Positions 3,201-61,800 of a stretch of DNA of 64,000 nt are shown here, in pieces. The position numbers were made by a program, and so were the translations under genes. The notes under the pieces are model-generated. The model saw only the letters and a list, made by a program, of their open reading frames with translations. It was not told the DNA's origin and searched no databases. Numbering within the stretch: the first letter of the stretch is position 1; each line of letters begins with the position of its first letter. The stretch spans positions 1 through 64,000 of the forward strand of contig MU128923.1 of NCBI GenBank assembly GCA_014904985.1. The letters are read 5' to 3'. Origin of the DNA: Hydnum rufescens UP504 (taxonomy: Eukaryota; Basidiomycota; Agaricomycetes; Cantharellales; Hydnaceae).

Positions 3201-3767
3201 ACACTGGAGCGTTGGAAGGCTGAATTCTCGCTTAACTCAGACCTGCCTGCAGCAATACGATGGATTTAGCGCAGCCCAATGTTCTGGCCACATGGCATGC
3301 ATAATACTCATTTCTTTTGTGGTATGTCAATCTAGGATTTGGGCTGTCTCTCTTGCACATGATAGGGGGGATTTGAGGCAAGACCATTAGCCCTCATTCT
3401 GCCTAGATGCAGACGGTCGCGCTCCTCTTCCCGCATTTACTCGCGCGCTCTCGCTCTCTCGCTCGGTAGAGGCCTTGGCACAGGCATTTCTGTTTTTTAT
3501 TGCCTTGTTGAGTGCAATGGCCAGCACTTGGCTGGATGAATCTTCCTGAGCAGCCTCCTCCCCTTTGTTATGGTAGGATTCAGATACTGTGTGGGCCTGT
3601 GTCCTGTGGCAAACTCACTGACAGGTGAGGCTGTGGATGGGGTCTCAGATGCTGGAAGCTCGGATGATGATGAAAATGGGGAATTAGAAGATGCACCTGT
3701 GCCGCAAGACATTGCATTCTTAGCTGCTCTTGATGCTCTTGAGGAGTTAGTTGGGGATGATGCATGA
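243..3767 (+). pseudogene. KDZ transposase, degenerate
   Basis: KDZ transposases are cut-and-paste enzymes widespread in Agaricomycetes. The N-terminal part (ATG at 243) and the cysteine/histidine block with CTCNEKH, CVHMEYLE and NERAWAA (669-1030) are well kept. A one-base deletion near 1031 shifts the frame: after it the +1 frame reads HYQVLVRLVNAEMAK, matching copy 3. Further on only islands survive: GEDDAVATWDENVPN (about 1690-1735), LYDIAPCQIHRSLLNGN (about 1940-1995), KEHVEKAMEG (about 2865-2900), MYIPPEI (about 3000) and the acidic tail SSDDDENGELED (about 3655-3700). Parts of 1270-3570 cannot be aligned by eye. The order of islands equals that of copy 3, so this is one decayed gene. 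It cannot make a working protein. Confidence 0.8.
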
Positions 3768-4069: not shown

Positions 4070-4145
4070 TAGGACCTACTTAGGTACCAATTCATGGCAC
4101 AGATTTGGTACCTAACATAGGTAGTCAATGTGGTTGACCAGCCTG
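4070..4145. other. KDZ 3' terminal region
   Basis: Read on the minus strand this starts CAGGCTGGTCAACCA, followed by imperfect repeats of TAGGTACC/TACCTA. The segment at 58524-58590 has the same order (CAGGCTGGTCAACCA, CCTACCTATGATAGGTA, GATACCTAGTTAGG). Two copies with the same boundary define a terminus. Confidence 0.7.
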
Positions 4146-4163: not shown

Positions 4164-6723
4164 TAGGTTTGCAAACACCCAGATGCATTGAGCTTCTCAT
4201 CTGCAAAAGGCCTTCATGAGAAAGTCCAGGGCATGCCAGGGGGCCCACCATGGATGTCAGCTGAGATTGTTCTCAAGGATGCACCAAATGAACCTCAAAC
4301 ACTCTTTTATCATGACCCTGCCAAGTGCGCCAACCTCCTATTCCAGAATCTGATGTTCAAGGACTGTATGGATTTTGCTCCAAAGTGGGTATATAAAGCT
4401 GATGGAACAACCAGACTATACCATGAGATGGCATCAGCTGATGGCTGGCATGAAGAGCAGGTACATTATAACTTGCAAAGTTGCTTCTATTTTCTCAACT
4501 TCACTCTGGATTGATAGGCAAAGCTTCCTAAAGGAGCCACTCTACAAGCAGTCATAATCACATCAGACAAGACTCACCTTATGAATTATTCTGGTGATAA
4601 ATCAATGCATGCTGTCTACATCTCACTGGGCAACATCCACAGTGACATTCAGCAAAAGCCTACATTCGGCGCATGGATGCTACTTGCCAAATTACCAGTA
4701 TCAAAATTCGCTAACACAGCATTTGACACATCTGGGACAAAATCAGAAGCATTGCATATGCCAGGAATCCTCAAGCAGTAATTGTTCCACGAGTCTCTGA
4801 AAATCATTCTCAAACCATTGTCTGTTCACCATCACAAGCTTTGTAAAACTGTGGGTCCTGATGGATATGTGCAACACACATTCCCCATACTTATGGGGTG
4901 GATTGCCGATCTCAAGGAACAATTGGTTATTGCCAGAGTGACACAGTATGCATGTCCAGTAACTTTGGCAACTTATGAGGACCTGCAGAACCACTTGTGT
5001 TGCAAGCCATGCACTGGCAAATCCACACTTGACACCCTTGCATCAGTGCACAAAAAGTACCCAGCAGCAACTACATGGGAGTTTGTGTGCAAAGTGAAGA
5101 AGGTGGACAAGGGCTTATCTGGCTGCATCAAGCATCCATTTTGGGAAGGTATGGGTGTGGATCCTTGCCACTTCATTTGTCAGGATGTACTGCATGGGTG
5201 TCACAAATTTTTCTGGGACCACCCAGCAAAATGGCTTGCACACACGGTCGGTCCCAAGGAACTTGATAATCACTATGTTGCCCAACCTAAAGCTGGTTTC
5301 TGCCACTTCAGTCATGGGATATCTAAGATTTCACAGGTGTCAGGGTGAGAACATTGAGACTTTCAAAAATCAATCTTGGCAGTGATTGTGGGTGCAGAGG
5401 GTACCACTGATCCATGAGTTGTTTGCACAATCCAAGCGCTGCTTCATTACATATACATGGCCCAATTTCCACTCCAGTCTGAGCTCACATTACACAAAAT
5501 GGCAGCTTTACTTGACACCATTCATCAGAACAAGCAAGTTTTTATCAAAAATGGTTCCTGCAGTGATATGGATCACCTTAGAATCCCCAAGCTCTATTCA
5601 CTTCCATGCTCCATTGAAAATGCACATTTCAATGGTGTCTCAACCAATTTCACAACCAAAACTGCTGAGTATCTCCACATTTCTATGTGCAAGGACTTGT
5701 ACAATGCAACCAATCATCATCAGTATGATATACAGATGCTCCATCTTCTCGACATGCACAAGAAGATACACTTCCACAGTGCCTATGTGTCATGGGCTTG
5801 CCAGAGGCCTGACCATGACGATTCCAGCGAATCTGATGAACACAACAATTCAGATGAAAGTCATGACACTCCTCACCACTCAAAGATCACCACATCAGCA
5901 GTATCATGTACCACAGTTGGAACTCTGGAAATGCGACAGCTTGGTCACATTAAGATTGTGCAATGAGCCCCATGTCTCCAAGTTGCAATACAATCCATTC
6001 CTGGGGAATATGGTGTCCCTGATTTCATATCTGCCATTTGTTGTTTTACAGAGCTCAGAGAAAGTGGCACCTCCACAAGTCACACATGCTGATGGGATTA
6101 CCCAATTGAAGCAGTGCCCTCTTTATTTTCTGTTCTCGACATCTGGACATCATTTCGTATTGCCATACCTGGAATCAATGAGTTCTACCCAATGGAAATC
6201 AAAACTATTCAGTGCAGGCCCCAAGGAAGGACTGCTGCCCTATTTGATCCCATTCTGGTCACAGTCTGTCCCATGGAGGTTGGCCTTTCCAGTATGTACC
6301 TTAACTCATGTAGACTTCAATTTCACTGACAGCCTTGAAATGAATAGGGTATCATGTTGCTGAGTTACGCTTAGTCTTCTGAACTTGCAGAGATCCACAC
6401 AACCCATGCGCTGAATGGCCATTTTACACATATGTACTCTGGTATACCGAAATCCCCCAACACCAGTGCACGATGTCAAATTGTACCAGATTGACAAGGT
6501 CATTTCTCATTCGGGAGTATGTCAGAGTGGGGTCATTCTTTTAGAGCAGATCACTCAGCCTTGCCCTCTCACACCAGCCATTTTGGGACCATGTCCCCCT
6601 GGAATTACAAGTGAGACTTGTTACGATACATTCAATTCCTTCTATATCAATTCATTTGCCTCATGGCAACTATCATCATTTGCAGTAGTTTTTGACCACA
6701 CAATGTATATTGATCAAAGCTAA
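4164..6723 (+). pseudogene. Plavaka-like transposase, N-terminus missing
   Basis: The order of conserved blocks fits Plavaka-type (CACTA-related) transposases of basidiomycetes: SFSSAKGLHEKV (4191), an RLYHEMASADGW block (about 4420-4450), SDKTHLMNYSGDKS then YISLGNI (about 4560-4640), LDTLASVHKKYP (about 5030), VDPCHFICQDVLHGCHKFF with a following DH (about 5155-5220), FHQNKQ/IPKLYSLP/TTKTAEYLHISM (5540-5700), and a C-terminal block YINSFASWQ (about 6648). The frame changes several times and stops interrupt it, so it is dead. About 200 N-terminal residues expected of the family are absent at the junction with the KDZ terminus at 4145. Family assignment is from recalled motif order. Confidence 0.7.
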
Positions 6724-23161: not shown

Positions 23162-24458
23162 ATATCAGCAGGAGGACTTGGAAAAAATCATTGACATCTC
23201 CCCAGATGCACCCCAGAAATCTGGAAACAGACCTTCACCTTGATCTGCAAGCATATTAAAGCATTTGGTTTCAATGATTGTCTTGGGATGCTGGAGATGA
23301 TAGCCAAGGTCCATTTGAAAGAAGAAGTGGACCCTATTTCCCTGCCCATGTACAGAGCATCCCTGGCAAAGAGGAAGGTAATCAACAAGCAGGTGGAGAA
23401 GTGGATCAAGCAAGAGGTTGTAGAACCTTCTAAGAGCCCATGGGGCATGCCAGTAGTCATAGCATATTGGAATGGGAAACCCAGGTTCTAGACTACTGCA
23501 AGCTGAATGCGCAGACCATCCCTGATGAGTTCCCAATCCCTCACCAGAAAGAGATCCTGCAAGTGCTATCAGGAGTGCAAGTGCTACCAGCAGTAGATGC
23601 ATTGAGTGGATTCCATCAGATGAACATGGAGGATGAAGATAAAGAAAATACAGCCTTCCACCCTCATTGGGGACTGTGGCAGCTCAAAAGAATGCCATTT
23701 GGACTGCACAACAGTCCCCCCATCTTCCAAAGACTCATGCAGTCAATCCTATTGCCATACCTATGGATATTTGCCCTGGTCTACATCAACAATATAGTTA
23801 TCTACTCAAAATCATATGAAGATCATCTGGAGCACCTTGATGCCATACTCCAGGCATGCAAGGAAGCCCACTTAATGCTGGCACCAAAGAAACGCCACTT
23901 CATGTATATGTCAATACTGCTGTTGGGGCAGAAAGTGTCATGGTTAGGCTTGTCTACACACAAGGAGAAAGTTCGTGCAGTGGTCAACCTGGCTCACCCC
24001 TCCACCCATTCAGCCTTACAAACATTTCTCAGGATGGCTGTCTATTTTTTGCACTATATCCCATTCTACTCAGATTGAGCAGCCCCTTTATTTGACCTAC
24101 TCAAGAAAGATAGACCTTGGGCATGGGAAGCTGAGCAAGAGTGAGCCTTCCAGGATATCAAGGAAGTGTTGACTCAAGCTCCAGTCCTTGGCCACCCAAT
24201 GCAAGGGCTCCCCTATCATATATACTCAGATGCTTTGGACATAGCAATAGGAGCAAGTCTACAGCAGGTGCAGCCTTTAGAGCTTAAAGACCTGAAGGGT
24301 ACAAAACTCTACAAACAAATAAGACTTGCTTATCAGAAAGGGGAGCCCATACCCAAGCTAGTATGTCAAGCCTCAAAAGCCATGAATGATGTCCTGGACC
24401 CAGGGTCTTGGGCACACAAATTTGAGAAGATGATTGTTTTCATTGAATGAGTCATAGC
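23162..24458 (+). pseudogene. Gypsy B reverse transcriptase and start of RNase H
   Basis: RT blocks in order: VDPISLPMYRASLAKRKVI (23330-23390), EPSKSPWGMPVVI (23425-23460), LNAQTIPDEFPIP (23500-23540), VDALSGFHQMNM (23594-23630), MPFGLHNSPPIFQRLM (23692-23740), and the catalytic box, which reads YINNIVIYS at 23782-23808 in place of YIDDI. RNase H begins at about 24160 (YSDALDIAIGASLQQ, 24220-24265). The reading is broken by small frame changes near 23450 and 24078. The sequence continues without loss at 29143, after foldback 1 and one 8 bp duplication. Confidence 0.9.
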
Positions 24459-24536
24459 CAGCCTGGTCAGCCAATTATCAGTATCTAACTAGATACTTCA
24501 AGGGTTGCATTTATATGCTCTAACTAGATATCAGAC

Positions 24537-24615
24537 CCAGGGGGCCCCCAGGGGCCCCTGCAATTCAGTCGAGGGGGCCAGTCAAGCAGCCCAGGGGCCC
24601 CTGGGGCCCCTAGCC
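24537..24615. repeat. GGGGCCCC-rich subterminal patch, left
   Basis: Several overlapping GGGGCCCC/GGGGGCCCCC palindromes occur in 80 bp. The counterpart is at 28985-29046 near the other end. CTAACTAGATA motifs lie just outside (24486 and 24518), mirrored at 29066 and 29100. Confidence 0.8.
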
Positions 24616-24682
24616 ATTAGGATTATTTATTTATTATTATTATATACACTAGGCTCGCCCAGTGGGGCTCACCCATGCACCC

Positions 24683-26040
24683 AAGAAGAGCAGCCAGAGG
24701 CTGCTCTTCTTGCGCAATGTAGCTAAGGAAAATAAATACCAGGGGGGACTCACCATATATAGGGCCACTTGTTGGGCGCGTTCGGTTCTCATCTGGTGAA
24801 TTGCCGTTTGTCGCCTCGCCGTTTGGCATGTTGCCATCCATTGCGTCGCCCTTTGGTGTGTTGCCATTTGGGCCCTTGTTCGTTTTGCGGGTTTTCATTG
24901 TGGCCACAATCTAGAGTAATAAAAGATATATTAGTACAAATATCCAAAGCAGCGCAAAAAGAGCAGCTTTCGCTGCTCTTTTTGCGCGGGTGTAGCTACT
25001 GGGGTGCAGGGACTCACCTTAAATTGTACCACACACCCGCTATGGTGGGTGTGTGGTACCTGGGTCCTCATTTGGTGCGTTTGCATGTCTCATGTTGGTG
25101 CATGTTGCATTGGTGCGTGTTGCGTGTTGTGTGTTGCGTGTCGTGTGTCATGTGTCATGTTGGCGCGTGTTGCATTACCGCTCGGTCCCTTGTTGTTTCA
25201 TGGGTTTTCGTCATGTCTTGGACAAGTCAACCTAGAATAATAAATGAATCGTTAGTATGAATATTCAAAGCAACGCAAAAAGAGCAGCTCATGCTGCTCT
25301 TTTTGCGCCACAAGAATCAGAAATAAAAAATAAAAATAAAAACTTACCTTGGAGCACCCTACAACCGCTGTGGTGGGTGTAGGGTACTGGGAGTGCGGAC
25401 TCCGGCTCATACATATGGGTTCTCCCTGTGCCCCGTCATTTGGGTGTCGATAAGGGGGGGTACGGGGGTTCTGCATCAGTATTGGTTCGTGAGAATGGTT
25501 AATACCTATAAAATAATATTGTTAAATTAGTTAAAAATTAAACACCACGCAAAAAGAGCAGCTTTCGCTGCTCTTTTTGCGTGGTTGTAGCTACTGGGGG
25601 TGGGGACTCACCTTATATGGGACCACACACCTGCCGTGGCGGGTGTGTGATTCCTGGGGCCCTCATTTGGTGTGGTCGCGTCCTCGTTTGGCGCGTTGCT
25701 GTGGGTTGCGTCCCCATTTGACGTGGTGCCATATTTCGCATCGTTGCCACGTTGCTGTGGGTCGTGTCCTCTTTCGGCGTGGTGCTGTATCTCGCATCGT
25801 TGCTGCGTCGCATCCTCATTTGGTGTGCTGCTGTATTTCACGCGTTGGCCCCTTGCTGTGGGTTGCGTGTCGGGCTGCCGTTTGGGTTCTTGTTATTTTG
25901 CGGGCTATTGTCGTGTGTTGAACGAAGCCTCAATCTAGAATAATTAAAGTCACATTAGTAAAAAGTTTCAAAGCAGCACAAAAAGAGCAGCTTTCGCTGC
26001 TCTTTTTGCGCCGTCGTACCTACTAGCAGAAAAACTCACC
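24683..26040 (-). repeat. Foldback 1 left array: mini exon-intron units
   Basis: Five units are seen, oriented outward (minus strand). Hairpins: 24683-24711, 24952-24987, 25275-25306, 25546-25583, 25976-26011. In each, on the minus strand, a palindrome of the type ACCACACACC...GGTGTGTGGT is followed by AAG|GTGAGT, then the hairpin, then TTCTAG. An example of a would-be exon is 25934 down to 25612 (323 nt). Would-be exons are rich in Asn, Thr, Pro and Asp in some frames, but frames are not kept across junctions. Whether these are spliced is not known. Confidence 0.85.
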
Positions 26041-26135
26041 TTATGACCACACACCCATGGTGGCGGGTGTGTGGTCGTGCGCTTGCCTTTCCAGGCGGTT
26101 GTTTGTTGTGGTTTCGGAGATGAGAAGAAAGATCT

Positions 26136-26787
26136 GAAATTCAATGCCAGCAATTGCCAATACTCAAGAAGCGCCCAAGTGCTGACGCTACAAGCACAAT
26201 ACAGATTGATAGCAAGCATGTAGATGTGGAATATAGAATATAGAATAAATATTTGTTTAAAAATGTGAAGAAGAGGATAAAAATGAGCCAGAGCTCAATA
26301 AGGGATGATATGCCTCATTGCAAAGTGGATTAGATCACTTCTATGCATCAGAATTGGCCCAAATTTAAATATAGTGATGGTATATATATACCCTACATGG
26401 GAAACCAATTATATCAGACGATTCTGGCATTTTTCTATTTTCCATGCCTTCAATTCCCTATTTAGGGAATTGAAGGCGTGAAAAATAGAAAAATGCCAGA
26501 ATCGTCTGATATAATTGGTTTCCCATGTAGGGTATATATATACCATCACTATATTTAAATTTGGGCCAATTCTGATGCATAGAAGTGATCTAATCCACTT
26601 TGCAATGAGGCATATCATCCCTTATTGAGCTCTGGCTCATTTTTATCCTCTTCTTCACATTTTTAAACAAATATTTATTCTATATTCTATATTCCACATC
26701 TACATGCTTGCTATCAATCTGTATTGTGCTTGTAGCGTCAGCACTTGGGTGCTTCTTGAGTATCGGCAATTGCCGGCATTGAATTTC
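26136..26787. repeat. Central palindrome of foldback 1 (2 x 325 bp)
   Basis: Two 325 bp arms (26136-26460 and 26463-26787) mirror each other around a TT at 26461-26462; the innermost part is CAATTCCCTA TT TAGGGAATTG. I found only scattered mismatches by eye, such as CAT/CGT near 26450 and 26476. TATATATATA motifs lie in each arm (about 26385 and 26535). They could serve as paired outward promoters for the two arrays; that is inference. Confidence 0.95.
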
Positions 26788-26879
26788 GCAACTACGCAGC
26801 CACACCCAGCAACAGAAGGATGACGACGACAATCCCACAACCAGACGACGACGACCCACAACCACATGACCACACACCT

Positions 26880-28700
26880 GCTGCTGCAGGTGTGTGGTCA
26901 TAAGGTGAGTTTTGTCAGTAGATACAATAGCGCAAAAAGAGTAGCACAAGCTACTCTTTTTGCGCCACTTTGAACTCTTATACTAACATAGCTTTTATTA
27001 TTTTAGATTATGGCCTAAGGCCCGAGACGAAAACCCACCACACGATGAGGGCCCGAACGGCAAGAGCCAAACCAAAAGAAACGATGGAGCACCCAATGGG
27101 TGGCCCCAGGAACCACACCCGCTGCGGCAGGTGTGGTACTATTTAAGGTGAGTGTTGCCCCCCCCCCAATAGATACAGTCGCGCAAAAAGACCAGCGAAA
27201 GCTGGTCTTTTTGCGCTGAATTATAACCTTAACTAACATATATTTTGATATTCTAGGTCATGCTTTGAACCACCATCTGCACGAGCGCCAACCGAAACTA
27301 CACCAAGTGAAAACCCGACGGACACCCCACCGAACGATAAACCAACGCAAACCAGACACCTGCCACGGCGGGTGTCTGGTTATACATTCAAGGTATGTGT
27401 CCCCAATGGCACAAAAAGAGCAGCAAAAGCTGCTCTTTTTGCGCTACTTTGAATTTCTTTACTGATTCCTTTTTAATTCATTCTAGGCCATCAAATGAAA
27501 CCCCCCCAAACGACAAGGCCCAATCGGCCAGGGCCCCAGCGGCAACATGCAAACAGAAACCACACAAAACGAAAATGCGAGACGTGGCCATGGACCACCC
27601 GAGTGGCCATGTGAACCACACACCCGCTGCAGTGGGTGTGTGGTTCTATACAAGGTAAGTGTACCCCAACGGCGCAAAAAGAGCAGCAAATGCTGCTCTT
27701 TTTGCGCTGGTTTTAATTTATCTAACTAATACATCCATTATTCTAGGCTACCACAAACGAAGATCAGCGAAACGAAACCCCTCCGAAACGATAACCTGCC
27801 CGCAAAGTTGAATGACAACACACCAAACGAAAACATGAGACGACGCCAACCCCAGATGAACCACACACCCACAGAAGTGGGTGTGTGGTAATTTCAAGGT
27901 AAGTATGATCACGCAAAAGGAGCAGCGCACGCTGCTCCTTTGCGTGGCTTTCTGTTTTTTTTTTTCTCTCTTTCATTAACATTATTTATCTCTAGGCTTT
28001 AATCTCAGCCTACAAACCCTGTCAACCCCCAAATAAAGACCCACCACCCTGCCAAAGACACCTGCGAGAATGGTAACCCACCCGCCAGACGAAACCCATG
28101 AGAACGGAAACCCGCCAACCCCCTAAGTGACGACCAGCCCCTGTACCAAGTACGAACTGCGCGACCGTGGTACCAAATAGTACCACATACCCACTTAGGT
28201 GGGTGTGTGGTACTACAAAGGGGTTTTTTTTTTAATTTCAATATCTTCAATGATGCGAAGGGAGCAGCGCAAGCTGCTCCTTTTGCATCACTTCGAATTT
28301 TTTTTACTAACTAGGATTCAAATGGAAGGACCCAAAATGCAACCCATGCCCCGCGCTCAACGGTGAAGTACCAAGCCACGCCCCGGTACCACACACCTGC
28401 CCAAGTGGGTGTGTGGTGCTACTAGGTATTTTTTTTTGGAATTTCTATATGTACAGCGACGCAAAAGGAGCAGCTTGCGCTGCTCCTTTTGCATGCCTTC
28501 GAATTTTTATTTATTAATGTATGGTATTATTGTAGAATCCAGCCAGAGCACCCAAAACAATGACCCACCCCAACAGCAACCTGCCCAATGGTGAAGGCCA
28601 TGCCCCCGTACCACACACCTGTCCAAGCAGGTGTGTGGTGCTACTAGATAGTTTTTTTTTTAAATTTCTATGGATGGTACCACACAAGCGGGTGTGGTAA
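26880..28700 (+). repeat. Foldback 1 right array: mini exon-intron units
   Basis: Seven hairpins: 26930-26965, 27181-27216, 27409-27444, 27672-27707, 27910-27946, 28252-28289, 28461-28492. Would-be exons with clean borders are 27007-27147, 27257-27392, 27487-27654 and 27747-27898 (141, 136, 168, 152 nt). The introns between them are 109, 94 and 92 nt, begin GTGAGT, GTATGT or GTAAGT, contain CTAAC-like branch sites, and end TTCTAG. A further intron is 27899-27995. Beyond 28200 the splice signals degrade. AATAAA-rich sequence at 28755-28865 could serve for polyadenylation. Exon lengths are not all multiples of three, so protein coding is doubtful. Confidence 0.85.
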
Positions 28701-28984
28701 GTAGTTTTTTTCTTGGATTTCTACAGACAGTACCACACCCCAGTGGGTGTGGTGAATTTTTAAATAAATAAATAAATAATACACAACTCAGTAAGAATGA
28801 AACATGGAAATGCCGAATGAAACCCTGCTGACTGGGGGTAGCAGTGATAATAAATAAATAAATAATCATAAATGGAACATATTATCCCGGACAAGCGTGT
28901 ATGGCCCACTGTGCAAGTCTGAGATTAGGTGACTGAAGAAGGCACCTAACCCAATATATTGAAGTTCTGTGGCCAGTCTAAGTC

Positions 28985-29046
28985 CCACACAGGGGCCCCT
29001 GGGGGCCCCTGCCTTGATCATGGAAATCAGGTTAGCCAGCCCCAGG
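28985..29046. repeat. GGGGCCCC-rich subterminal patch, right
   Basis: AGGGGCCCCTGGGGGCCCCT and CCAGGGGCCCC motifs mirror the patch at 24537-24615. They form part of the outer inverted structure of foldback 1. Confidence 0.8.
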
Positions 29047-29142
29047 GGCCCCAGCATCAAAACCTCTAGTTAGACTATATAAATGCAAGGCTCGTAATAT
29101 CTAACTAGACCTACATTTGTGGCTGACTGAGTTGGTCATAGC

Positions 29143-30669
29143 ATACTGGAGCTGCTCATTAAAGAGTGCTGAGAGAAACTACTCAGCAATGGAACAAGAA
29201 GCCCTGGGAGTCAAAGAAGCCCTTGTTCACTTCCAGCTGTTTGTAGAAGGAGAGAAAAATATAATCATCACAGATCACTCAGCACTACAATGGGCTCAAA
29301 TGTATGAGAACACCAACAGATGACTGGTGGCATGGGGGGTGGTGTTTGGAGCATTCCCAGGACTCAAAATCATACATTGAGCAGGAGTGACTCATTCAAA
29401 TGTTGACCCCCTGTCAAGGCTAAGCAGAATTCCACTGCACCAGTCACCTGTGGGATTCAACACTGCCTCTACCAGCTCCACTACCCGACCAACCCCTGCA
29501 GGCATGGGAAACAAATCTGGAACAAATGCCAGCACAGAGCAGCCTTCTTAATGATGAGGGTGCAGTCCAGGACTGTACCCAAATCAAAGGACGTACGAGA
29601 CGGTAAATGAAGCTCCATGACCATGGAAGAAAGGCTAGAGAAGGAAATGTCTTGAGCCACATGGGAAAGGAGCAGGAAGGCCAACCCTCCAGGAGGGGAA
29701 TGGCTTCCTCATGGCCTATCTATCAACATAAGCCCTGGGAGACTCCTAGCTTTTGTGAATGGCTATAAGGAGGATCTGAGCTTCAGTCAGGCCTGGGGGG
29801 CTGTGGAGCCAGAGGGAGCAGAAGTCTCAGCTGCCCAATGGTTCTATAAGTCACCAGAAGGACTGCTCACCTTCTGTGACACAGATTGGGTAGCAAGGCT
29901 ATGTGTCCCAAGATCAGAAGTCCAGGGCCTGCTGCGCGAGACCCACAATAGCCCATGGGAGAGTGCCCATGCAGGCTTGTCCCACCTCTATCACCACCTA
30001 GCTGCCCAATTTTACTGGCCCAGGATGTGGGCTGACATTGTCCAGTTCATGAGAACCTGTGACATATGCCAGAAAATGAAGCCAGATAAGCAGGGGCCTA
30101 ACAGCAAGCTGCTGCCCCACTTGATCCCATTACTACCTTTCAAAGTTGTCTTGCTAGACCTTACCACTGGTCTTCCCAAATCCTTAGGTCACAATGCAGT
30201 ACTCATGATTGTGGACAAGCTCACAAAATATGTACAATACATTCCTATGGTCTTGACACTGAAGCAGGAGGGATTTGCCAGATTATTCATTGACCATGTG
30301 GTCTACAAGTACAGTATACCCAAATGAATGATTGCTGACAGGGATGCATGGTGGGCCAAAGCCTTCTGGGCTTCAGTAGCTAAACACCTGGACCTAAACC
30401 TCCTGCTCTCAACCTCCCATCACCCTCAAACCAATGGGCAGACAGAGAAAGCCAATGATACCCTGGAGGTGGTGCTCAGAGCATACATCATGGGTAATGG
30501 AGGAAACTGGGCACAGTGGCTGGGGCCTCTGGCATCCACCTATAACTCCACCCCCCACTCCTCTACAGGATACTTGCCAGACTTTCTACTGATGGGCTAT
30601 TCCCCTCACACAGGTGCACAAGCTATCAACCCTGTCCTGTGAGGGATACAGTGACTCTTTACTCACAGT
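29143..30669 (+). pseudogene. Gypsy B RNase H end and integrase core
   Basis: RNase H continues from 24458: NYSAMEQEALGVKEAL and IIITDHSALQW (29180-29300). The tail SNVDPLSRLSR (29397-29430) is the usual end of RNase H. Integrase follows, with a zinc-finger part ETHNSPWESAHAG...CDICQKMK (29937-30080) and the catalytic core: LLDLTTGLPKS and MIVDKLTKY (30150-30235), IADRDAWWAKAFW (30329-30370), then HPQTNGQTEKANDTLE (30421-30470). The D, D and E positions are present. Stops at about 30325 and 30640, and a poor stretch at 29440-29750, break it. It resumes at 34467 after foldback 2. Confidence 0.9.
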
Positions 30670-30999
30670 CAGCCCTAGCTGTAGTATAGATATATCAAAC
30701 ATGGTATCATACCAGTGTTAATTAATATATGAAACCCGCTAACTACCACAATGGTAACTACCATGCCTATATATCAGGATGTATCAGTACCACAGTACCA
30801 GCCAAATAGGCTGCATTGCCATTTCATTGCTTGTCATTGCCCATTTAAATATTATTACTATATTGGTAATTCCCATATTAGGATTTATTTATTATATTAT
30901 CTAATATTCAATATTTACATTTAATATTTATATTTAATCCCAAAAATACTACATTAGCTGCATTCAAAAGAGGCCACATATTGACTCACCCTATTATGA

Positions 31000-32100
31000 A
31001 TGAACCATAATACCTTGCCCAGGTACCGTGTGGTACAGGTTTCAATCATGCAGGTGGGTGTTGATCATGCGGGTACGGGTTTTGATCATGCAGGTACAGG
31101 GTTTCATCACGTGGGTATGGGGTTTCATCGCACAGGTACAGGTTTTGTTCAAGCAGGGTGTCCTGGCCTTCCGCACTGGTAGAGGTAATCTAGAGTAATA
31201 AGTGATGTGTTAGTTAGAAAGAAAGAAGAGCCAGCACCAAAAGAGCAGCCTTTGCTGCTCTTTTGGTGCTGGTGGACCGAGAGTAATTGACAACTCACCT
31301 GAGATTACCACACCCGCTGCCGCAGGTGTGGTAACATCGCATAGGGCTGGACCCTCAGAATTTTCAGGGGCTGCACACATAGGTACTACATGGGGGGCTT
31401 CATCTGTACTCTTGTCAGGTGGATTTTGGTGCAGGGGGGCCTAGAATAACAACTCATACATTAGGTTAGTAAAATCAAAGAGAAGCACCACCAAAAGAGC
31501 AGCTGGTGCTGCTCTTTTGGTGCTGCTGCAAGGAGAAACTCACTAGATGGTACCACACACCTGCTCCAGTGGGTGTGTGGTACCATATTTCACCTGTCGT
31601 TGCATACAGTTGAGGGCAGGCTCTGATTGGGTCTTGAGTGGCTGTGTGCGTCTGTAGTTTGTCCTGGGTCTCACCCACATTCTTGTCAGATGGGGTTTCA
31701 TGCAAGGAGGGACCTACAATAATAAATAACATGTTAGTAAAAAAATAAAAGAAAGGTAGCACCAAAAGAGCAGCTGGTGCTGCTCTTTTGGTGCTGTTGT
31801 ACAGGTTAGGAGGAGAAACTCACCAGATAGTACCACACACCTGCCGCAGCAGGTGTGTGGTACTGTATTCTGCCTGTTGTCGCATGGGTTTGGGGGCTGC
31901 ACATGTATGGTCTTGCATGGATTTCGGCCCTCATTAATTTTCGGGTGGCCCCCAGGTTTTGTATTGTCATCATTTGGGTCAGGGGTGAGGGCCTCAGACC
32001 TAGACTGGGGTGGTATGGTGTGTTAGTGAGAGTCTTAGAGAAGTGCAAAGAGGGCAGCTTTTGCTGCCCTTTTTACATGGGTGTATCTAGTAGGAGGGGG
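31000..32100 (-). repeat. Foldback 2 left array
   Basis: Hairpins at 31231-31272, 31489-31522, 31758-31795 and about 32045-32075 with stems of the type CACCAAAAGAGCAGC...GCTGCTCTTTTGGTG. Each is preceded on the minus strand by a CCACACACCTGC...GCAGGTGTGTGG-type palindrome and a 5' splice-like GTGAGT, and followed by a TTCTAG or CTAG acceptor-like end. At 31030-31175 there are 18-19 bp repeats of the type ATCATGCAGGTACGGGTTT. Confidence 0.8.
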
Positions 32101-32212
32101 GACTCACTTGTGTACTTGTGGTGTGTGTGGTCCTGTTCTAGTTTCGCGGGGATCCTGTTGGTCACACATCCTATATATGAATGATGTGGATTAGGTAAGC
32201 ATCAAAACAAAC

Positions 32213-32558
32213 ACTGAATGCCAGGAGTTTCCGGGCTCAAATGAGTGCCCAATTAGGGGCAGTACAAAGCTCATACGGATAGATAGTAAATACCTAGATA
32301 GAAAATAAAGACTATATTTCATGGGTGACGAAACTAATGGGACAATCAAGCCAATTTTCAATTTCTTGCACCTTCAATTTCCTATTTAGGAAATTGAAGG
32401 TGCATGAAATTGAAAATTGGCTTGATTGTCCCATTAGTTTCATTGCCCATGAAATATAGTCTTTATTTTCTATCTAGGTATTTACTATCTATCCATATGA
32501 GCTTTGTACTGCCCCTAATTGGGCGCTCATTTGAGCCTGGAAACTCCTGGCATTCAGT
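32213..32558. repeat. Central palindrome of foldback 2 (2 x 172 bp)
   Basis: Arms 32213-32384 and 32387-32558 mirror each other around TT at 32385-32386, with inner core CAATTTCCTA TT TAGGAAATTG. This core has the same design as in foldback 1 (CCTATTTAGG), although the rest of the arms is unrelated. A few mismatches are seen, for example CGTCAC versus CATTGC. Confidence 0.95.
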
Positions 32559-32589
32559 AGCATCTTCAGATCTACTTGTCAAAGGCACC

Positions 32590-33740
32590 TGAAACAAGCA
32601 CAACACAGTGCCACACACCCCCTGGGGCAGGTGTGTGGCACTATTAGGTGTATCTCTTTTTTTTTCTTTACTAATCTATTTGCTACTCTAGGTACCTTTT
32701 CCCACTGCAAAACCCCACCCAAGGCAGCAGAGATGATGACCAGGGCGAAACACAGATGTATGCAGGCACCCGAAAGCCCAGCCCCTGAACACCCATGATG
32801 ACTGCCATGATGAATTAAATATGATACCACACACCCACTGCAGCAGGTGTGTAGGTGAGTTTTCCATTAATACAACACCAAAAGAGCAGCACCAGCTGCT
32901 CTTTTGGTGTTGTTTGGATTCTTTTTTTATTAACATGTTTATTATTCTAGGTTCTTTGTTCCATCATGAAACCTGACAAGGCCCAGAGTGAAATATGGGC
33001 ACCTGCGCAGCCACCCAAGACCCTGACCCTCAAGTATCTGCAACTCACACAATGACCAATTGAATACGGTGCCACATGCCCACTTTGGTGGGTGTGTGGT
33101 AGTATCAGGTATGTCTAATCCCACTGGTGCCAAAAGAGCAGCAAAAGCTGCTCTTTTGGCACCCCTCTGTTTTCTTTTTTTTTTTACTGATGTATTATTC
33201 TTCGTTATTCTAGGTGCCTTCCCTATGTGAAAACCTGCCTGATGAGGACACGGATGAGCCCCCACCACAAAACTCGATGTGCAGCTGCCCAAGCCCTGAG
33301 TACCTGGCCCTGAACACAATGATCGACGAAATCTCATACCACACCCACTGCAGTGGGTGACCTTGTAAGTTTCTCATTATAACATGTGCAACCATGCCAG
33401 AAGAGCAGCAGTTGCTGCTCTTCTGGCACTGCTTCTGTTTTTTTATTCACTAACATATTATTGGTCATTGTAGATCACCCCCTGCACAAAGACCAGCCTG
33501 ACAAGAGCATGAAAACCCCCACACAAGATACAGATGCATAGCCACTGAAGGCCACAACCAATGCGACAACAGGCAAAGCACAGTACCACACCTGCTGCAG
33601 CAGGTGTGGTAGTACATGGTAAGTTTTTAATTACAGTGCGTACAACAGCGCCAAAAGAGCAGCAGAAGCTGCTCTTTTGGCACTGCCTCTGGCTTTGTTT
33701 TTCACTGACACACTATTTGTTATTCTAGACTCTCCCCACA
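32590..33740 (+). repeat. Foldback 2 right array
   Basis: Hairpins at 32872-32913, 33126-33162, 33395-33428 and 33650-33681. Outer stem pairs differ between them but remain paired (GGTGCC/GGCACC, TGCCAG/CTGGCA, AACACC/GGTGTT). Units begin after TTCTAG or CTAG ends (about 32690, 32951, 33213, 33729), and each carries a palindrome of the CACACCxGC...GGTGTG type. The first unit (32600-32695) has the palindrome but no hairpin. Confidence 0.8.
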
Positions 33741-34466
33741 TGAAAACCTGTCCAACAAGAACATGGAGAGGCCCTCAAAAATATGAATGCACAGCTGCCG
33801 AAGACCCGTGCAAGGGCCATGAGAATGAAACCCAAAACCTGCATGAGCACAAAGACCTGTACAAGCCCAGGCTTGTGGACCTGTATGAATACCTGCCTGA
33901 GCCCCCCCCCCCCCCCCGGCCATATGTAGTAGCAATAATAAATAATAATAAAATAATGAAGCCTCCATGTACAGTAGTGATGAATAATAAAAGCTTGTGA
34001 TTATCCCAATAAGCCAGCCCATATAGCCCGCTGACCATTTAGGGACATGCTGGGACCTATCTCAATACCCCATCCAAATATATCCATATGTGGATGCATT
34101 TGATCCTGCATCAGTTGGTGACTGATGCAGTAACCCACGTACTGGTATTACTGGCGATATCTGCAGGGATATGGCTGCTGATAGAAATCCTTCAAGTATA
34201 TAGAGGAGTTCAAGACCCAAATAGTGTACAAGATGAGTTAACCTAGTTGGTTTAAGCACCTGGAGTTCCTCATGTATTGGCACATTGTGGGTTCAAACCC
34301 TGTGAAGTGCATAATTATGTGTTTTATTTTGAAACCTCATGCATGGGCTCCTGATATATCAGCTATGGCAAGTTACCATATGGTGACTACTGGGCTTGAT
34401 ATATTAATTAGACATGGTACCATACCATGTTTGATATATCAGCACTACAGCTAGTGGTGTCACAGT

Positions 34467-39969: not shown

Positions 39970-42900
39970 ATGAAGTGGTCCCTCAAGCCCGGGAGGGCCG
40001 CCAAAGACGTCTCGTTAACAATCTCCCAGCCTCTTCGCCACCTCCTCGACGCAGTCCCGGTACCCGGGTCTAAGGCCGGAATTGGTATTCTCCTCGATGT
40101 CGTCGAAGGAATCGACGTTAGTATCATTCTCCCCTCGTTGTAGAACTATCATCCCTCATCATTCGCCGTGTCCTTCCAGAACACTTCCCGGAACTCCTCG
40201 ACGCTGCTAGAACTAGAAAATCATATCCGATTCCTAACCGATCTCCTGGAGCCCCTGACGAAAATGGGTCGAAACAATGTTTCATCGGGCCTTAAGGCTG
40301 ATGTGTGGAGGTTGAGTAAGTGAGTGTCAACGCTTTGATTCATAATATGAATGTGCCACTAATGCATGCAGCGTTGAAATTAGAGATTTGGAGAGTATTT
40401 CGTCGAATGTCAAGTCAAAATCTTCTGCAGGCGGTTTATACCACTTCTTGGAGCGGGGAGAGGGAAGGCGCGATCTCCACACTTTCGTCCAAAATCTCAA
40501 GGCGGCCCTCGACGCTTTCAGGTGTGTTTGGGCACAGCACAATGTCCCTCGCTCCGTCTCTGACTGGCGTGCACGTGCACGATCTAGCTTAGCCAAACGC
40601 TCCGTCAGGAGCGAGAATCGCTTCTTCAGGGTAAGAATCCCTTCTTCACTTTCAACTGTTCACACGTTGAGATCCCCTTTCACAGAACGGTCCGCCGCTG
40701 TCATGTCTCTCCCTCGTGCCAACTTGGCGGCCTACGATTCCGGCCGCAAAGACGCCCCGTCGTCATGCCTCGAAGGCACTCGTGTTTCAATACTGGCAGA
40801 GATCATGTCGTGGTCCGAGAGCACGGAAAGCGGGACGTGCCCTTTATACTGGCTCCTTGGACTCGCCGGAATCGGCAAGTCGACAATTGTGAAGACGGTG
40901 GCCGAACGAGCGGATAAGAATAGAATGCTAGGGGGTAGTTTCTTCTTTTCCCGAAGTGACGCACTATTGTGCGATCCAAACCTTGTCTTCCCGACGCTTG
41001 CCTTCCAACTCGCACAATCGGATAATGATTTCAAACCCATCATCGGGGAGGCCATACAGCAAGACATGATGGTGGGTCACAAGGAGCTGTCCGCTCAATT
41101 CGAGGGATTGATCTTGAAGCCCCTCGGGAAACTCGATTCAACCCGACGGACAACACTTATCGTGCTTGATGCCCTCGACGAGTGTGAAGAACAGGGTGCT
41201 GTCACAATTTTGCAGTTGCTCCTGTCGCACGCTTCACGATTACCCTTCCTTCGCATCTTAATTACCAGTCGTCCGGAGCCGCACATCTCATCGGTCTTCA
41301 CTGAGGCTAGGAACCTTGCAAAGAGAGTTCTCCACCATATTGAAGCCTCTGTCATTGAGGGAGACCTCCGGCTTTACATTCGGTCTGAATTGAGGACGAT
41401 TTTAAAGAAGCTCGAGCTTTCCAGCGTTCCGGGTTGGACGGAGGGAGAAATCGATTCTCTGGTTGAGAAATCAGGGAAATTGTTCATTTATGCAGCCACC
41501 TCCATCCGATTCATTGGTGACGCTCGTGTTCGAGATCCTCGTCGTCATCTACGTCTTATACTGGATACACAGCTCAGCAAGGAATCGGAGGCAACACCCT
41601 ACTCGCAGCTGGACAGCTTATACGTTGGGGTCCTTCGGAACTTGCTCTCAGATTCTAACCGTAATGCGATCGTGAAACGCTTCCAAATGGTGGTGGGTAG
41701 TATTGTGTTGCTTCGGCAACCCCTCCCGCTCGGCTCGTTGGCACAGTTTGTCCAGTGTACACTGGACGACGTTGATACCGCTCTCCGTCACCTTCGTTCC
41801 GTCATCATCCCTCCCTCCACTCTGGACGAGGCCCCTCATATTCATCACCCTTCATTTCGTGATTTCATTACCAATCCTTCACGATGCTCTATCCCGGAGT
41901 TCGTGATTGTTGCTGGACCAGATCAAGAGCCACGGCATGCCTTGCGATGCTTTCAGCTTATGGAAACATCCTTGAGGCAGGACATAGCCGGGATCTCGGA
42001 TGTGTCTCTTTTGAACAGTGAGGTGGAGGGATTGGAAGCGAAAGTAAGCGATGCACTATCAGTGGAGCTGCAGTATGCATGCAGGTTTTGGGCATCGCAT
42101 CTGTCGCATACAGAATTGAGGGAGAAGCGAATAATGGAGGCACTGGAGGGATTTTCAATGCGGTTCATTTTGATGTGGTTTGAAGCCATGAGCCTGATTG
42201 GGAGTCTCTCTAGTGCCGTAACCTCAATGGAAGAGGCACACCAGTGGGCGGTAAGTGCATTCACTATTGGGCATTGGATCAGCAGTTGATTGAAGTGTGA
42301 TTCCGATGACAGATGAATTCGCAGTGCGAGGCAACTGTAATTACAATGTTGGCCGATGCACGGCAGTTCATTCTTGCTCATGGTGAACTGATACAGGGGA
42401 GTGCACTCCAGGTGTATCATTCTGCACTGGCATTCACACCATATGACACTGCACTGTACAAGACATATTCAAAAGATGTAAAGAGTTGTATCAGGGTGCT
42501 GCAGGGTGTGGAGGCTCAATGGCCACAGAACTTCAGTACCTTGATTGGCCATTCTGATCGGGTTAGCTCTGTTGCATTTTCACCAGATGGTCTATGGCTT
42601 GCATCAGGCTCATATGATTGTACCCTATGCTTGTGGGATGCCATGTCTGGGGCACACGTCACAACACTTCAAGGCCATTCTCATGGCATTACATCCATTG
42701 CATTTTCCCCTGATAGTTTCCGGCTTGCATCAGGCTCATATGACTGTACCCTACGATTATGGGATCTCATATCAGGTGCCTGCATTGCAACTCTTCAAGG
42801 CCATTCTCGTTGGGTTACCTTGGTGGCATTTTCACCTGATGGTTTACACCTTGCCTCAGGCTCAGATGATTGTACCCTATGCTTGTGGGATGCTATGTCA

Positions 42901-43593
42901 GGTGCCCACATTGCAACTCTTCAAGGCCATTCTCATTGGGTTACCTCAGTGGTATTTTCACCTGATGGTTTGCGGCTTGCATCAGGCTCATATGATTCCA
43001 CTGTATGCTTGTGGGATGCCATATCAGGTGCCTGCATTGCAACTCTCCAAGGCCATTCTCATGGGGTTATCATGGTTGCATTTTCACCTGATGGCTTATG
43101 GCTCACATCAGCCTCACATGGTGGTTCCCTACACTTGTGGGATGCCATGTCAGGCATGCACATTGCAAGTCTTCAAGCCCATTCTGCCCAAATTCAAGCT
43201 GTTACATTTTCCTCAGATGGCTCAACCCTCTTCTCCCAAAGTCACACAGAGACTTTGGCATGGGATTTGACATCCCAACCCCCTCAATTAGTCTCTACCT
43301 CAATTTCAGAGGCCTTCCTTCCTGCTATAAGCCTCAGATCACTTGTGGAGGCTACAGTGGGTGGCTGGATCCAGGCACTAGACTCCCATGGCAATCATGT
43401 TGCACGTATCTGCTATATCCCTCTGCATTATTCTCTGAGCACTACAATCCAAGGATCAGGTCTACCCCATCAATTCCGACTTGCAGTTGGATGTTGGGAT
43501 GGTCACATTGTAATTGTGGATCCCCAAGATCATCCATTTGTTCATAGGCTCAAAGATGTACTATTGGTAACTGGGTCTGTTGCTGCCACCTAG
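39970..43593 (+). CDS. NACHT-WD40 protein (NLR/STAND type), six exons
   Basis: A complete model joins 39970-40116, 40180-40310, 40372-40521, 40593-40630, 40686-42250 and 42313-43593. The introns are 55-71 bp, all GT...AG, and the frame holds throughout (1103 residues). The N-terminal 155 residues are helical-looking; I cannot name the domain. The NACHT NTPase has Walker A GLAGIGKST (near residue 213) and Walker B LIVLDALDEC (near 312), with TSRPEPHI as a likely sensor. The C-terminus (from about 753) carries five regular 42-residue WD40 repeats (GHSxxVxxVAFSPDG...LASGSYD...LWDAxSGA), a weaker sixth and a divergent last blade (FRLAVGCWDGHIVIVD). Fungal NACHT-WD40 proteins include HET-E-like incompatibility factors, signal-transducing ATPases in which the repeats sense a ligand. 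Repeats 1-5 are very similar to each other. It is the only clearly intact multi-domain gene here. Confidence 0.92.
42539..43170 (+). repeat. WD40 coding tandem repeats (126 bp unit)
   Basis: Five 126 bp units encode near-identical WD40 motifs. TGCATTGCAACTCTTCAAGG-type sequence recurs at each boundary. The units are CpG-poor and rich in TG/CA compared with the exon before them. Such repeats can change number by unequal crossing over. Confidence 0.85.
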
Positions 43594-45745: not shown

Positions 45746-46879
45746 CAGCCCTAGCTGTAGTATTGATATATCAAACACAGTATCATACCAGTGTTAATTA
45801 ATATATGAAACCCACTAACTACCACAATGGTAACTTACCATGCCTATATATCAGGATGTATCAGTACCACAGTACCAGCCAAATAGGCTGCATTGCCATT
45901 TCATTGCTTGTCACTGCCCATTTAAATATTATTACTATATTGGGAATTCCCATATTAGGATTTATTTATTATATTATCTAATATTCATTTAATCCCAGAA
46001 ATACTACATTAGCTGCATTCAAAAGAGGCCACATATTGACTCACCCTATTATGAATGAACCATAATGCCTCACCCAGGTATCATGCAGTATGGGTTTCAA
46101 TCATGCAGGTGGGCATTGATCATGCAGGTATGGGTTTTGATCATGTGGGTATGGGGTTTTGTCACATGGGTATGGAATTTTGTCATGTGGGTACAGGGTT
46201 TTGTCATGTGGGTATGGGGTTTCATTGCACAGGTATGGGTTTCGTTGGAGTGGGATGTCCTGACCTTCCACACTGGTAGAGGTAATCTAGAGTAATAAGT
46301 GATGTGTGAGTTAGAAAGAAAGAAGAGCTAGCACCAAAAGAGCAGCCTTTGCTGCTCTTTTGGTGCTGGTGGACTGAGACTAATTGATGACTCACCTGAT
46401 ATTACCACACCCACTGCCGTGGGTGTGGTAATGTCACATAGGGCTGGACCCTCGGAATTTTCAGTGGCTGCACACATAGGTACTACAGGGGGGGCTTCAT
46501 CCATACTCTCGTCAGGCAGATTTTGGCACAGGGGGGGACCTAGAATAACAACTCATACGTTATGTTAGTAAAATCAAAGAGAAGCACCACCAAAAGAGCA
46601 GCTGGTGCTGCTCTTTTGGTGCCGCTGCAAGGAGAAACTCACTAGATGGTACCGCACACCTGCTCTGGTGGGTGTGTGGTACCATATTTTGCCTGTCATT
46701 GTGTACAGTTGAGGGCGGGCTCTGATTGGGTCTTGAGTGGCTGCATGCATCCATAGTTCATCTTGGGTCTCACCCACATTCTTGTCAGATCAGGTTTCAC
46801 GCAAGGAGGGACCTACAATAATAAATAACATGTTAGTAAAAAAAATAAAAGAAAGGTAGCACCAAAAGAGCAGCTGGTG
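45746..46879. mobile_element. Foldback element 3, left arm only
   Basis: It begins CAGCCCTAGCTGTAGT and follows foldback 2 (30670-31780) almost base for base, including hairpins at 46330-46367 and about 46588-46622. It stops inside a third hairpin, after CAGCTGGTG in the loop region. The next bases are a KDZ-type terminus, so the rest was lost or displaced. Confidence 0.9.
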
Positions 46880-58853: not shown

Positions 58854-61800
58854 TTAATCCTCATGTCCAAGAACAAGATCAAGAGAGGTTAAGAATGTGA
58901 GATCTTCTAGCTCAGGTTGCTCCTCTAACTCACCATTTTCATCATCATCATCAGAACTTGCTCCCAGATCCCCCTCTTCCCCTTCCCCAGGGGATAAATC
59001 CTTCTCTGCTTGTACTCTCCCTTGCCGGCAGACCCATGCCCTCCTTAAAGGAGGTGGCCGGTCTGGAATGCTCCCCCAATCCAGCTGCCCATCACTACCA
59101 GCAAGCCCAGTAGTGTGATGTTGCCAGGTATCAACAAGGTCATGCAACCGGTGTAGCTCTATCAAGGCAAAAAATTTAACATCTTCATCTGTTAAAATCC
59201 CAGCAGCTGTTAGTTTACAATAATTTAGTCAAGTCAGAAGGACCACACACCATTGCAGAGATCAACAGTGCACTGGGTAGCAACACATTGCATTGAAAAC
59301 CAAGACCTTAGGTTGGAGAGTTCTGCCTTACAGCGTCTAAGCTCCTCATGGCAGTTCACCAGCTCCTGAGCATGCCGGATGCCACCACGGACTTCCTTGT
59401 CTGCAACCCATGCAGGTACCTTCCCACCTGGAAAATTTGCCATATCCTCATGATGGGGCACTTGCCAAATATCTTCATCTACATCAAGCTTGTACACTGA
59501 TGATGAAATTTCTGGAGGGATATATGCATCCCTTGCAACATTCCCTTTCCCTCTAAGCTTCATCATCTGTTTTCAGATATCTTCATAGCGTTTAAGTGTT
59601 GCTTGAATCCCAGAGACATGACCTTTCATTGCCTTTTCCACATGCTCCTTAGTCTTGTGGTCCAGCTGGTGACTTGTGTCTGCACGCTCTAGCCCTGCAA
59701 GCTCAAATTTACATGCTCTAAGCTTCATCAGGAGCTGGCCCCTCACAACCCTGATATTCAGTTGGAGGTTTATCCACTTGTTGGTCTTTAACCGCTCCAA
59801 CTCCTTGTAGGACTTTTGATCAGAAAGATGAAGCTCCTCTGTCTTTTTTGCAATATTACTCTCAAGACGCCGCACACTAGCCCTTATCTCAGTAATCTTC
59901 AACTGCAGCTCATCCTCCAATGCAACCGTTCCAGTATCTGTCACAAGGCCTGCAAGCTCATCAGTAAGCTCCCTTAGATGTACCCTGAGTGAGTCCGCAG
60001 ATTGGGACATAGACAGAATGTGTTCTATCGCATGCAATCCCTTTGTCTTTGACTGCCAAGGGATTGGCCTACTTTGAAAAGTGCGCTGCTCCTTGAACTG
60101 GTCCAAGAGATAGTTGATTGAGTCTTCACCAAGTTTTTCCTCAGCCATGGCCTCACGTCCCATGGTGCGCAACACATGATCATGAAGCCACTTCCCTGCA
60201 GCCTCCTGTTTGAGCTCATCTATATGCTCCACTTGGAGATCAATTATGAACAGTCATCTGTGATACTAAGAATACCAATAATCAGTATATCTTATTAATA
60301 CTGGCTTAGCATGTGAATGTACATACCCCAGTGACCCACAGACCAGGAATAAGTCACCTGAGCTCACTCCAGAATCTCTCACAACCTTCACCATCAGACA
60401 GCCCCCATTTTTCTGACTTCCTGGGGTGGTACCAAAGCTGGCAAGTCCATTGGTGGCCATATGCATGGAAAACTGATACACCAAACTCAATGCGTCCTGT
60501 CCATTCAGGCATGATGTTCCACTTGAGGAGACTACGATGGATTTGACAGGCTATGTCATACAGCAGTCCAACTGTCCAATCACTAGGTAGATCCCTGAGG
60601 AGGGCGGAGATGAGGGCAAAGGCATAGAACTGCTTCTCACCTGCAGTATGCATATTGGCAATGTAGATTGGAATATCATGCTGACAAAGCATAGCCATCA
60701 GCCCAGTGTCATCAAAGTGTTGAGTAGAGGCCTTAATGTGATCACTGTCCACTGCAATGAACAAGTCACCACAGATATCAAGAACAGAATTTGGTACATT
60801 CATTCCCAGTTCAACAGCATCATCATCACCTGGTTCACCTCTGTCATCCTCTACCAGCTCATCGGCCTTCCTCTTCCTGCCTGCTCCAGCTGTGGCCCTT
60901 CTTGTCAGTTGGATCTCATTGATCCTAGCAGCCATTGCATCAAGCTCTGCCTGTGGGAGCTCCACCGTCCTTGGAGAGTATATCTCCGGATCCCTGCTGC
61001 CCATCTGACCCTCAAAACCTTTCCTTCTGTCCTTGTCATGATTGCGTTTGAGTTGAAAATTTGCATCTATGCAGACGATGACACTGGCTTGGAGATCGGT
61101 TGCATGCCTCCCTCCAAAACAAAGAGCACAGCGAGATTGAAAATATGGGCTTGGACACTCTGGGGCACCATCAACTTTGGTAGGTCCAGTGGAATTATGG
61201 GCATTTGCATATACTCGAGCCAGGACCAGGGTTCTTTCGTCAAGCAGAGGCACAAGAGGGGAGGAACATCCTGGGACCATGGGAACAGTGGAGTTCAATG
61301 ATTCACAGAAGAAGTTGGTAATTTTGGTCATTTCTGCCTTCACCAGTCGAACAAGAACTTGGTAATGAGCAAGAGCATTGGCAAATCATCAATGAAGGGA
61401 ATCCCCAGTGGCAAATTCATGCCCGTGAGCCTTGAGATATTTCATAAGGGCTGCTGCCCATGCTCATTCATTAGGTGCCATATTTACAAACAGATCCGAC
61501 ACAAACTCAAGCATATCCAAGCTCACAGCCAAAGTTGGAGCTAACAGAGAGCAAGGGAAGAACCCCTGATGAACAAGCTGGATTCCCGCAGGGTGACAAG
61601 AGCAAATAACCAACTCGATATCCTCCAGATACTCCATATGGACACAAACCAATTTCAGCAAGTGATGATGTTCTGGACACAGACAGTGATTGGTCATCAA
61701 ATCAACCTGGGCCCCAGCATTCCGCTCTCTTTGGAAACTCATAAACAGACGAATGAGAGATGGGAGGACATCGTTACCCCACCGGTGAGCCTGTGCATGC

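Follow-up and report, generated by a model that had tools for sequence, protein, structure and literature searches.

Foldback elements of the FB and Galileo type make target-site duplications of 7 bp. In the published description of the KDZ transposons, the ends are CA..TG and the duplications are 8 bp long for Zisupton and 7 bp long for Kyakuja (PMC12730594). The element reported here, element 1, occupies 4676 bp at positions 24459-29134 of a 64,000-nt stretch (the window) of Hydnum rufescens UP504 (GenBank assembly GCA_014904985.1, contig MU128923.1, positions 1 to 64,000, forward strand). It has KDZ-type ends, a long central palindrome, and on both sides of it an array of units resembling spliceosomal introns. 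With moderate confidence, element 1 is read as a non-autonomous, KDZ-mobilised transposon whose palindrome would promote transcription in both directions, giving two divergent non-coding RNAs with several introns each. An earlier note on this DNA had proposed a new non-autonomous family of foldback type, and duplications, copies, empty sites, and non-coding exons agree with it; the intron-like units, the copy number, a second element (30670-34459), and a truncated third copy (45746-46879) had been overlooked.

Borders and insertion site

The features that define element 1 are as follows, with the basis in brackets.

24451-24458, left target-site duplication GTCATAGC (read from the sequence, copy comparison)
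24459-29134, element 1, 4676 bp (sequence reading, copies, empty sites)
29135-29142, right target-site duplication GTCATAGC (read from the sequence, copy comparison)
24459-24473, plus strand, left terminus CAGCCTGGTCAGCCA, common to KDZ transposons (terminus matches)
29120-29134, minus strand, right terminus, reading inward CAACTCAGTCAGCCA (sequence reading, copies)

The length, inverted ends, and exact 8-bp duplication given in the earlier note were all recovered; the duplication directly flanks 24459-29134 on both sides, and the outer inverted repeat (24466-24528 with 29065-29127) is 73% identical. The two flanks, joined into 317 nt by fusing them at the duplication, gave 13 one-piece matches elsewhere in the genome at 81-91%, in addition to more distant ones. 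These are clean empty sites inside a gypsy-like element, which in the window has its reverse transcriptase at 23440-24078 and an integrase zinc-binding domain at 29755-30327. Because the joined flanks match other places in one piece, the borders, which the earlier note had called firm on the ground of a restored RNase H frame while asking for empty sites, are confirmed at the DNA level.

As a separate observation, CG/TG/CA sites within 24459-29134 mutate much faster than the rest in all sequence classes, a pattern that fits cytosine methylation.

Copies and proposed KDZ partner

Element 1 is mobile and highly repeated. The hairpin core of its units occurs at 3319 exact places in the genome. 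Nine of 21 copies, spanning 3.6-5.3 kb, have matching ends and different perfect 8-bp duplications; for the other 12, which are truncated, nested, or diverged or lie close to the end of a contig, no 8-bp duplication was found. Rows of GGGGCCCC that look like duplications are subterminal repeats and were excluded from this count.

The terminus motif of element 1 is present at 605 exact places. It lies in the correct orientation no more than 3 kb from the 3' side of 14 of 26 KDZ genes (those on contigs C1-C32 among the matches listed), against an expectation of 0.014 per gene. KDZ genes are very numerous: in the whole genome, a first look gave 584 candidates, of which 150 were scored, with at least 154 matches. 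A possible partner transposon lies in the window itself.

60354-61385, minus strand, KDZ transposase frame with a terminus from 58524 (profile match, E 3.6e-51)

The frame beside this one is 57% identical over 94 aa to a frame in the element that starts at 46880. Locus L032 was considered as a KDZ element bearing the cassette and was rejected, since the cassette element ends at L032:5232 with the KDZ gene outside it. Elsewhere in the window, a Plavaka transposase fragment at 4782-5348 (PF18759, E 6e-25) lies between left-facing KDZ-type termini at 4145 and 7823.

Central palindrome

26136-26787, central palindrome, putative bidirectional promoter (self-alignment, copies)
26448-26475, 28-bp conserved centre, 258 exact genome places (exact genome search)

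The 652-bp palindrome claimed earlier was resolved into two 325-bp arms, 98% complementary, with a 2-nt spacer. Across the 21 copies, the mean identity of the arms is 97.2% within a copy and 93.4% between copies, and minor variants were found in both arms 191 times and in one arm 126 times. In distant lineages, the arms of one copy are still 95-99% alike, while identity between lineages falls to 69-71% (L033) and to 40-55% (element 2 type); this comparison leaves out L021 near 7560, L023 near 3746, L034, and L015 near 3086, which are of another kind or off-centre. The arms evolve in concert. Since they stay alike within copies as lineages diverge, symmetry is renewed or selected while the sequence drifts.

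Palindromes are a known assembly problem, and an assembly artefact was considered for this reason. It was rejected, and its probability is regarded as negligible, because the strict 28-bp centre recurs at 258 places on many contigs, the palindromes of different copies have a common end point and arms that differ at a few sites, and several sequence lineages are each palindromic. Another type of long palindrome, with no intron units near its centre, was seen at L021:7461-7661 and L023:3575-3919.

Intron-like units

Unit positions come from an intron-hairpin detector combined with a stem list. Units are numbered outward from the palindrome.

25935-26039, minus strand, intron-like unit L1, hairpin 25979-26008
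25506-25611, minus strand, intron-like unit L2, hairpin 25544-25585
25232-25347, minus strand, intron-like unit L3, hairpin 25274-25307
24911-25017, minus strand, intron-like unit L4, hairpin 24952-24987
24682-24753, minus strand, distal unit L5 with hairpin 24682-24712; a 5' splice site is present, a convincing 3' site is not
26905-27006, plus strand, intron-like unit R1, hairpin 26930-26965, exon hairpin 26866-26901
27148-27256, plus strand, intron-like unit R2, hairpin 27181-27216
27393-27486, plus strand, intron-like unit R3, hairpin 27412-27441, exon hairpin 27350-27381
27655-27746, plus strand, intron-like unit R4, hairpin 27670-27709, exon hairpin 27613-27646
27899-27995, plus strand, intron-like unit R5, hairpin 27916-27941, exon hairpin 27860-27889
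28178-28520, plus strand, distal units R6-R7, hairpins 28251-28290 and 28461-28492, T-runs in place of the standard 5' splice site

The twelve hairpins of opposite orientation noted earlier are of an A-tract/GAGCAGC type (5 left, 7 right), and a second type, ACCACACACC...GGTGTGTGGT, lies between them. Read outward from the palindrome, a unit has a 13-16-bp stem-loop at the exon end, a 5' splice site (AAG|GTRAGT) about 8 nt on, the A-tract hairpin as a second stem-loop (13-19 bp) within the upstream half of the intron, and beyond it a branch-site motif, usually followed by TTCTAG. By these signals, the units resemble spliceosomal introns pointing away from the palindrome and would be spliced in that direction. 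Between 20001 and 38000 of the window, 17 intron-with-hairpin structures were detected against a mean of 0.4 in five dinucleotide shuffles; 10 are in element 1 (the outermost left one is that with no convincing 3' site) and 7 in element 2. Sense-strand T, read outward, makes up 13.4% of exons and 42.8% of introns with the hairpin set aside. Beyond both arrays lie AT-rich stretches containing AATAAA (28757-28785, and 24620-24650 on the minus strand), which are putative poly(A) signals.

The same anatomy was found in other copies. Among 241 hairpin cores from the window and loci L006-L032, the 5' splice motif flanks 176 on one side only and 4 on both. In a set of 136 distinct units, chosen for having a 5' splice site, the median intron length is 104 nt, the branch and 3' sites follow in order within 106 nt in 132 (with TTCTAG in 72), and in 78 the exon carries a hairpin (stem 8 bp or longer) whose median distance to the splice site is 8 nt, against 0 of 136 after shuffling. 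The hairpin followed by GTRAGT has 1772 matches genome-wide, where about 100 are expected by arithmetic.

Units point outward. Around 29 palindrome centres, the units lying at most 1.33 kb away count 140 outward and 3 inward (of the latter, two are in L026 and one is in L029), and L022 has no unit in that range; at up to 2.33 kb the counts are 195 and 8. Among the first 100 of the 1772 matches, those at most 1.5 kb from a strict centre number 40 outward and 0 inward, and those at most 3.5 kb away 51 and 5.

The exons are non-coding, in line with the earlier statement that the element holds no recognisable protein. Stops occur in most frames (in exon L2, all frames are stopped in 10 of 10 copies compared), indels among copies are mostly of 1 nt, and exon lengths are out of phase. 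On these grounds, a decayed protein-coding array, in which the exons formerly coded for a repeated protein, was rejected as very unlikely; its support is that in some short exons a single frame stays open across many copies (for exon L1 this is frame 2, open in 15 of 16), which is taken here as chance in T-poor sequence. With no coding exons, the element is non-autonomous at most.

The units also resemble ready-made introns, as they would if the arrays were a source of introners spreading singly into host genes. Locus L035 is compatible with this, having a one-sided array directly behind an open frame. In a sample of only four isolated hairpin matches, however, all four lay in arrays or cassettes and none was a lone intron, and the introner explanation is considered highly improbable. 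The array at L035:1000-2400 has no palindrome, the open reading frame before it has no Pfam match, and it is possibly half a cassette fused to a gene end.

Conservation of the stems

Divergence was compared between element 1 and 20 copies with CG/TG/CA sites left out. Mismatches amount to 0.95% in both stem types, about four times below the surroundings, and to 0.74% in the loop of the intron hairpin. They reach 9.5% (169 sites) in the loop of the exon hairpin, 3.65% in exon bodies, 3.81% in the remaining intron, and 4.2% in the palindrome. Two-sided compensatory changes were found at 17 of 31 stem pairs in 27 diverse units (of 67, less than 86% alike), a percentage that leans towards structure because the 27 were chosen for having both stems.

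Several results weigh against the proposed RNA function and KDZ partnership. No standard 5' splice site flanks 61 of the 241 hairpin cores on either side, including those of the distal units of element 1. Splice sites are slowed modestly, to 2.0% (5' site), 1.3% (branch), and 2.4% (3' site) against 3.8%. At stem pairs 6-16, G-T mismatches number 66 and A-C mismatches 54 (pairs 17-18 are biased towards G-T and pair 19 towards A-C), so that selection on RNA rather than DNA is not demonstrated. In only 6 of 21 copies is each arm most similar to the other arm of its own copy, and template switching or conversion can also keep stems and palindromes perfect. The terminus was not present within 3 kb at 12 of the 26 KDZ genes, no KDZ element was read from one end to the other in this genome, and the left ends of KDZ copies L030 and L031 were not found within the stretches examined.

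Part of this would be expected of an element maintained at the DNA level, in which cruciform extrusion or template switching and conversion during replication or excision keep the hairpins and palindrome, and the splice-like motifs are carried along passively when units are copied. The lack of strand bias in stem mismatches, the concerted evolution of the arms, and the hairpins missing a 5' splice site are in its favour. Against it stand the outward polarity (140 against 3), the sharp T contrast between exon and intron strands, and an exon hairpin whose loop diverges at ten times the rate of its stem. Splice motifs also vary within spliceosome tolerance (GTGAGT/GTAAGT/GTATGT; CTAAC/TTAAC/CTGAT; YAG), although the scan itself required such motifs. 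This alternative is considered rather unlikely.

The stems could instead serve as a hairpin-RNA source or decoy, the RNAs feeding or saturating Argonaute/Dicer and so shielding the KDZ family. RNA folding of 26850-27300 is very strong (z -10.1), near-identical stems exist in thousands, and Argonaute-type Piwi domains are encoded in the genome (8 matches on about three contigs). Compared with known Dicer substrates, however, stems of 13-19 bp are short, and no Rfam match was obtained for window 24000-30000, L006, L020, or L029; a silencing-RNA role is thought distinctly improbable.

Element 2 and the third copy

30670-34459, element 2, design of element 1 with other ends, 7-bp duplication TCACAGT (30663-30669 and 34460-34466), palindrome 32213-32558, 3 units left and 4 right (alignment, detector)
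45746-46879, truncated third copy, element 2 type, interrupted at 46880 by an element whose terminus is KDZ-type (alignment, terminus match)

The ends of element 2 (30670-30748 with 34381-34459) are inverted and 77% identical. Its palindrome differs from that of element 1, yet a 28-bp centre core is common to both. Seven-bp duplications in this family are exact in element 2, L029 (CAGTTGG), and C42 (GTATAAT), have one mismatch in C55, and are lacking in the C1 copy. By eye, no KDZ genes were seen close to 31 places of element 2 type, on the basis of the scored KDZ candidates. One cassette is thus carried by two families that differ in their ends and in the length of their duplications.

The third copy is interrupted inside a hairpin loop by the KDZ-type terminus at 46880, and for the other side of the cut copy no genome match was found at up to 2 mismatches. 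Between the two elements' neighbourhoods and this copy, frames at 40346-43593 look by eye like a NACHT-WD40 receptor gene, with a P-loop-like region followed by WD40 repeats.

Proposed mechanism

In the favoured explanation of element 1, a KDZ (Zisupton-like) transposase would act in trans on the shared CAGSCTGGTCAGCCA ends and make the 8-bp duplications. The palindrome would drive two divergent non-coding transcripts outward through the unit arrays. Within each unit, the paired stem-loops may hold the 5' splice site single-stranded, and the intron hairpin may fold the intron of about 104 nt down to ordinary fungal length; about 65 nt remain once the hairpin is discounted, near the usual fungal size. 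With the 5' site accessible and the intron shortened, the transcripts are proposed to splice well. Speculatively, active transcription with efficient splicing would leave the element in an open state and spare it from RNA silencing. Splicing and RNA silencing in Cryptococcus are reportedly the subject of stalled-spliceosome work. In a published account of Cryptococcus, introns are described as needed for expression and splicing as tied to RNA silencing (PMC5851062).

A wider proposal is more tentative and rather doubtful, namely that the palindromic double promoter and the hairpin-framed intron arrays form a purely non-coding selfish RNA module, picked up by at least two transposon families as TET/JBP genes have been, because efficient splicing on both sides protects these families from silencing.

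If the explanation of element 1 is true, transposons can carry intron arrays for their own sake, with no protein at all, and such arrays belong, on the count of exact hairpin cores, with the structures that this genome repeats most often. In basidiomycetes, it becomes possible to test how splicing and transposon silencing are linked. A 5' splice site set between two stem-loops is available in thousands of naturally occurring versions, and the palindrome, several hundred bases in length, is a case of symmetry kept up during sequence divergence.

Comparison with known systems

Searches of an open-access literature library (subscription papers and Repbase lie outside it) showed neither a foldback element from a fungus nor a transposon that carries intron arrays of this kind.

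To our knowledge, FB and Galileo contain no intron-like, hairpin-framed units. The tie to these elements drawn in the earlier note holds as a likeness of form: as described for Drosophila, they too have long, internally repetitive inverted halves round a centre and mostly non-coding copies (PMC3573991, PMC4168063). They belong to the P superfamily, unlike element 1 with its KDZ-type ends; no P-type transposase was seen, though no search aimed at the P family was made.

Compared with the KDZ group (Zisupton, Kyakuja, Dileera) as published, element 1 is alike in the terminus found at KDZ genes, the CA..TG ends, and the 8-bp duplication of Zisupton; it differs in holding a palindrome and intron arrays instead of a transposase or TET/JBP gene. 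Element 2 is like Kyakuja in its CA..TG ends and 7-bp duplication, but has inverted ends, whereas the families characterised in that account are described as having no terminal inverted repeats (PMC12730594).

The shape of the hairpin core (A-tract, GC stem, T-tract) recurs in the intrinsic terminators of bacterial genomes. Among the matches listed, a pattern scan gave only this terminator-like background in bacteria, sporadic at one or two cores per stretch, and 5 stretches in viral contigs; here, the 3319 cores stand in arrays with splice signals.

Introners and fungal stwintrons, as reported, are likewise mobile or duplicated spliceosomal introns, some of them internally symmetric (PMC8469720, PMC9024468). 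They are described in host coding genes, whereas the units of element 1 form arrays inside a non-coding transposon. The TET/JBP genes of fungal transposons, in the published description, are similarly a cargo module common to different transposon lineages (PMC12730594); that cargo is a protein gene, and the cassette described here is non-coding.

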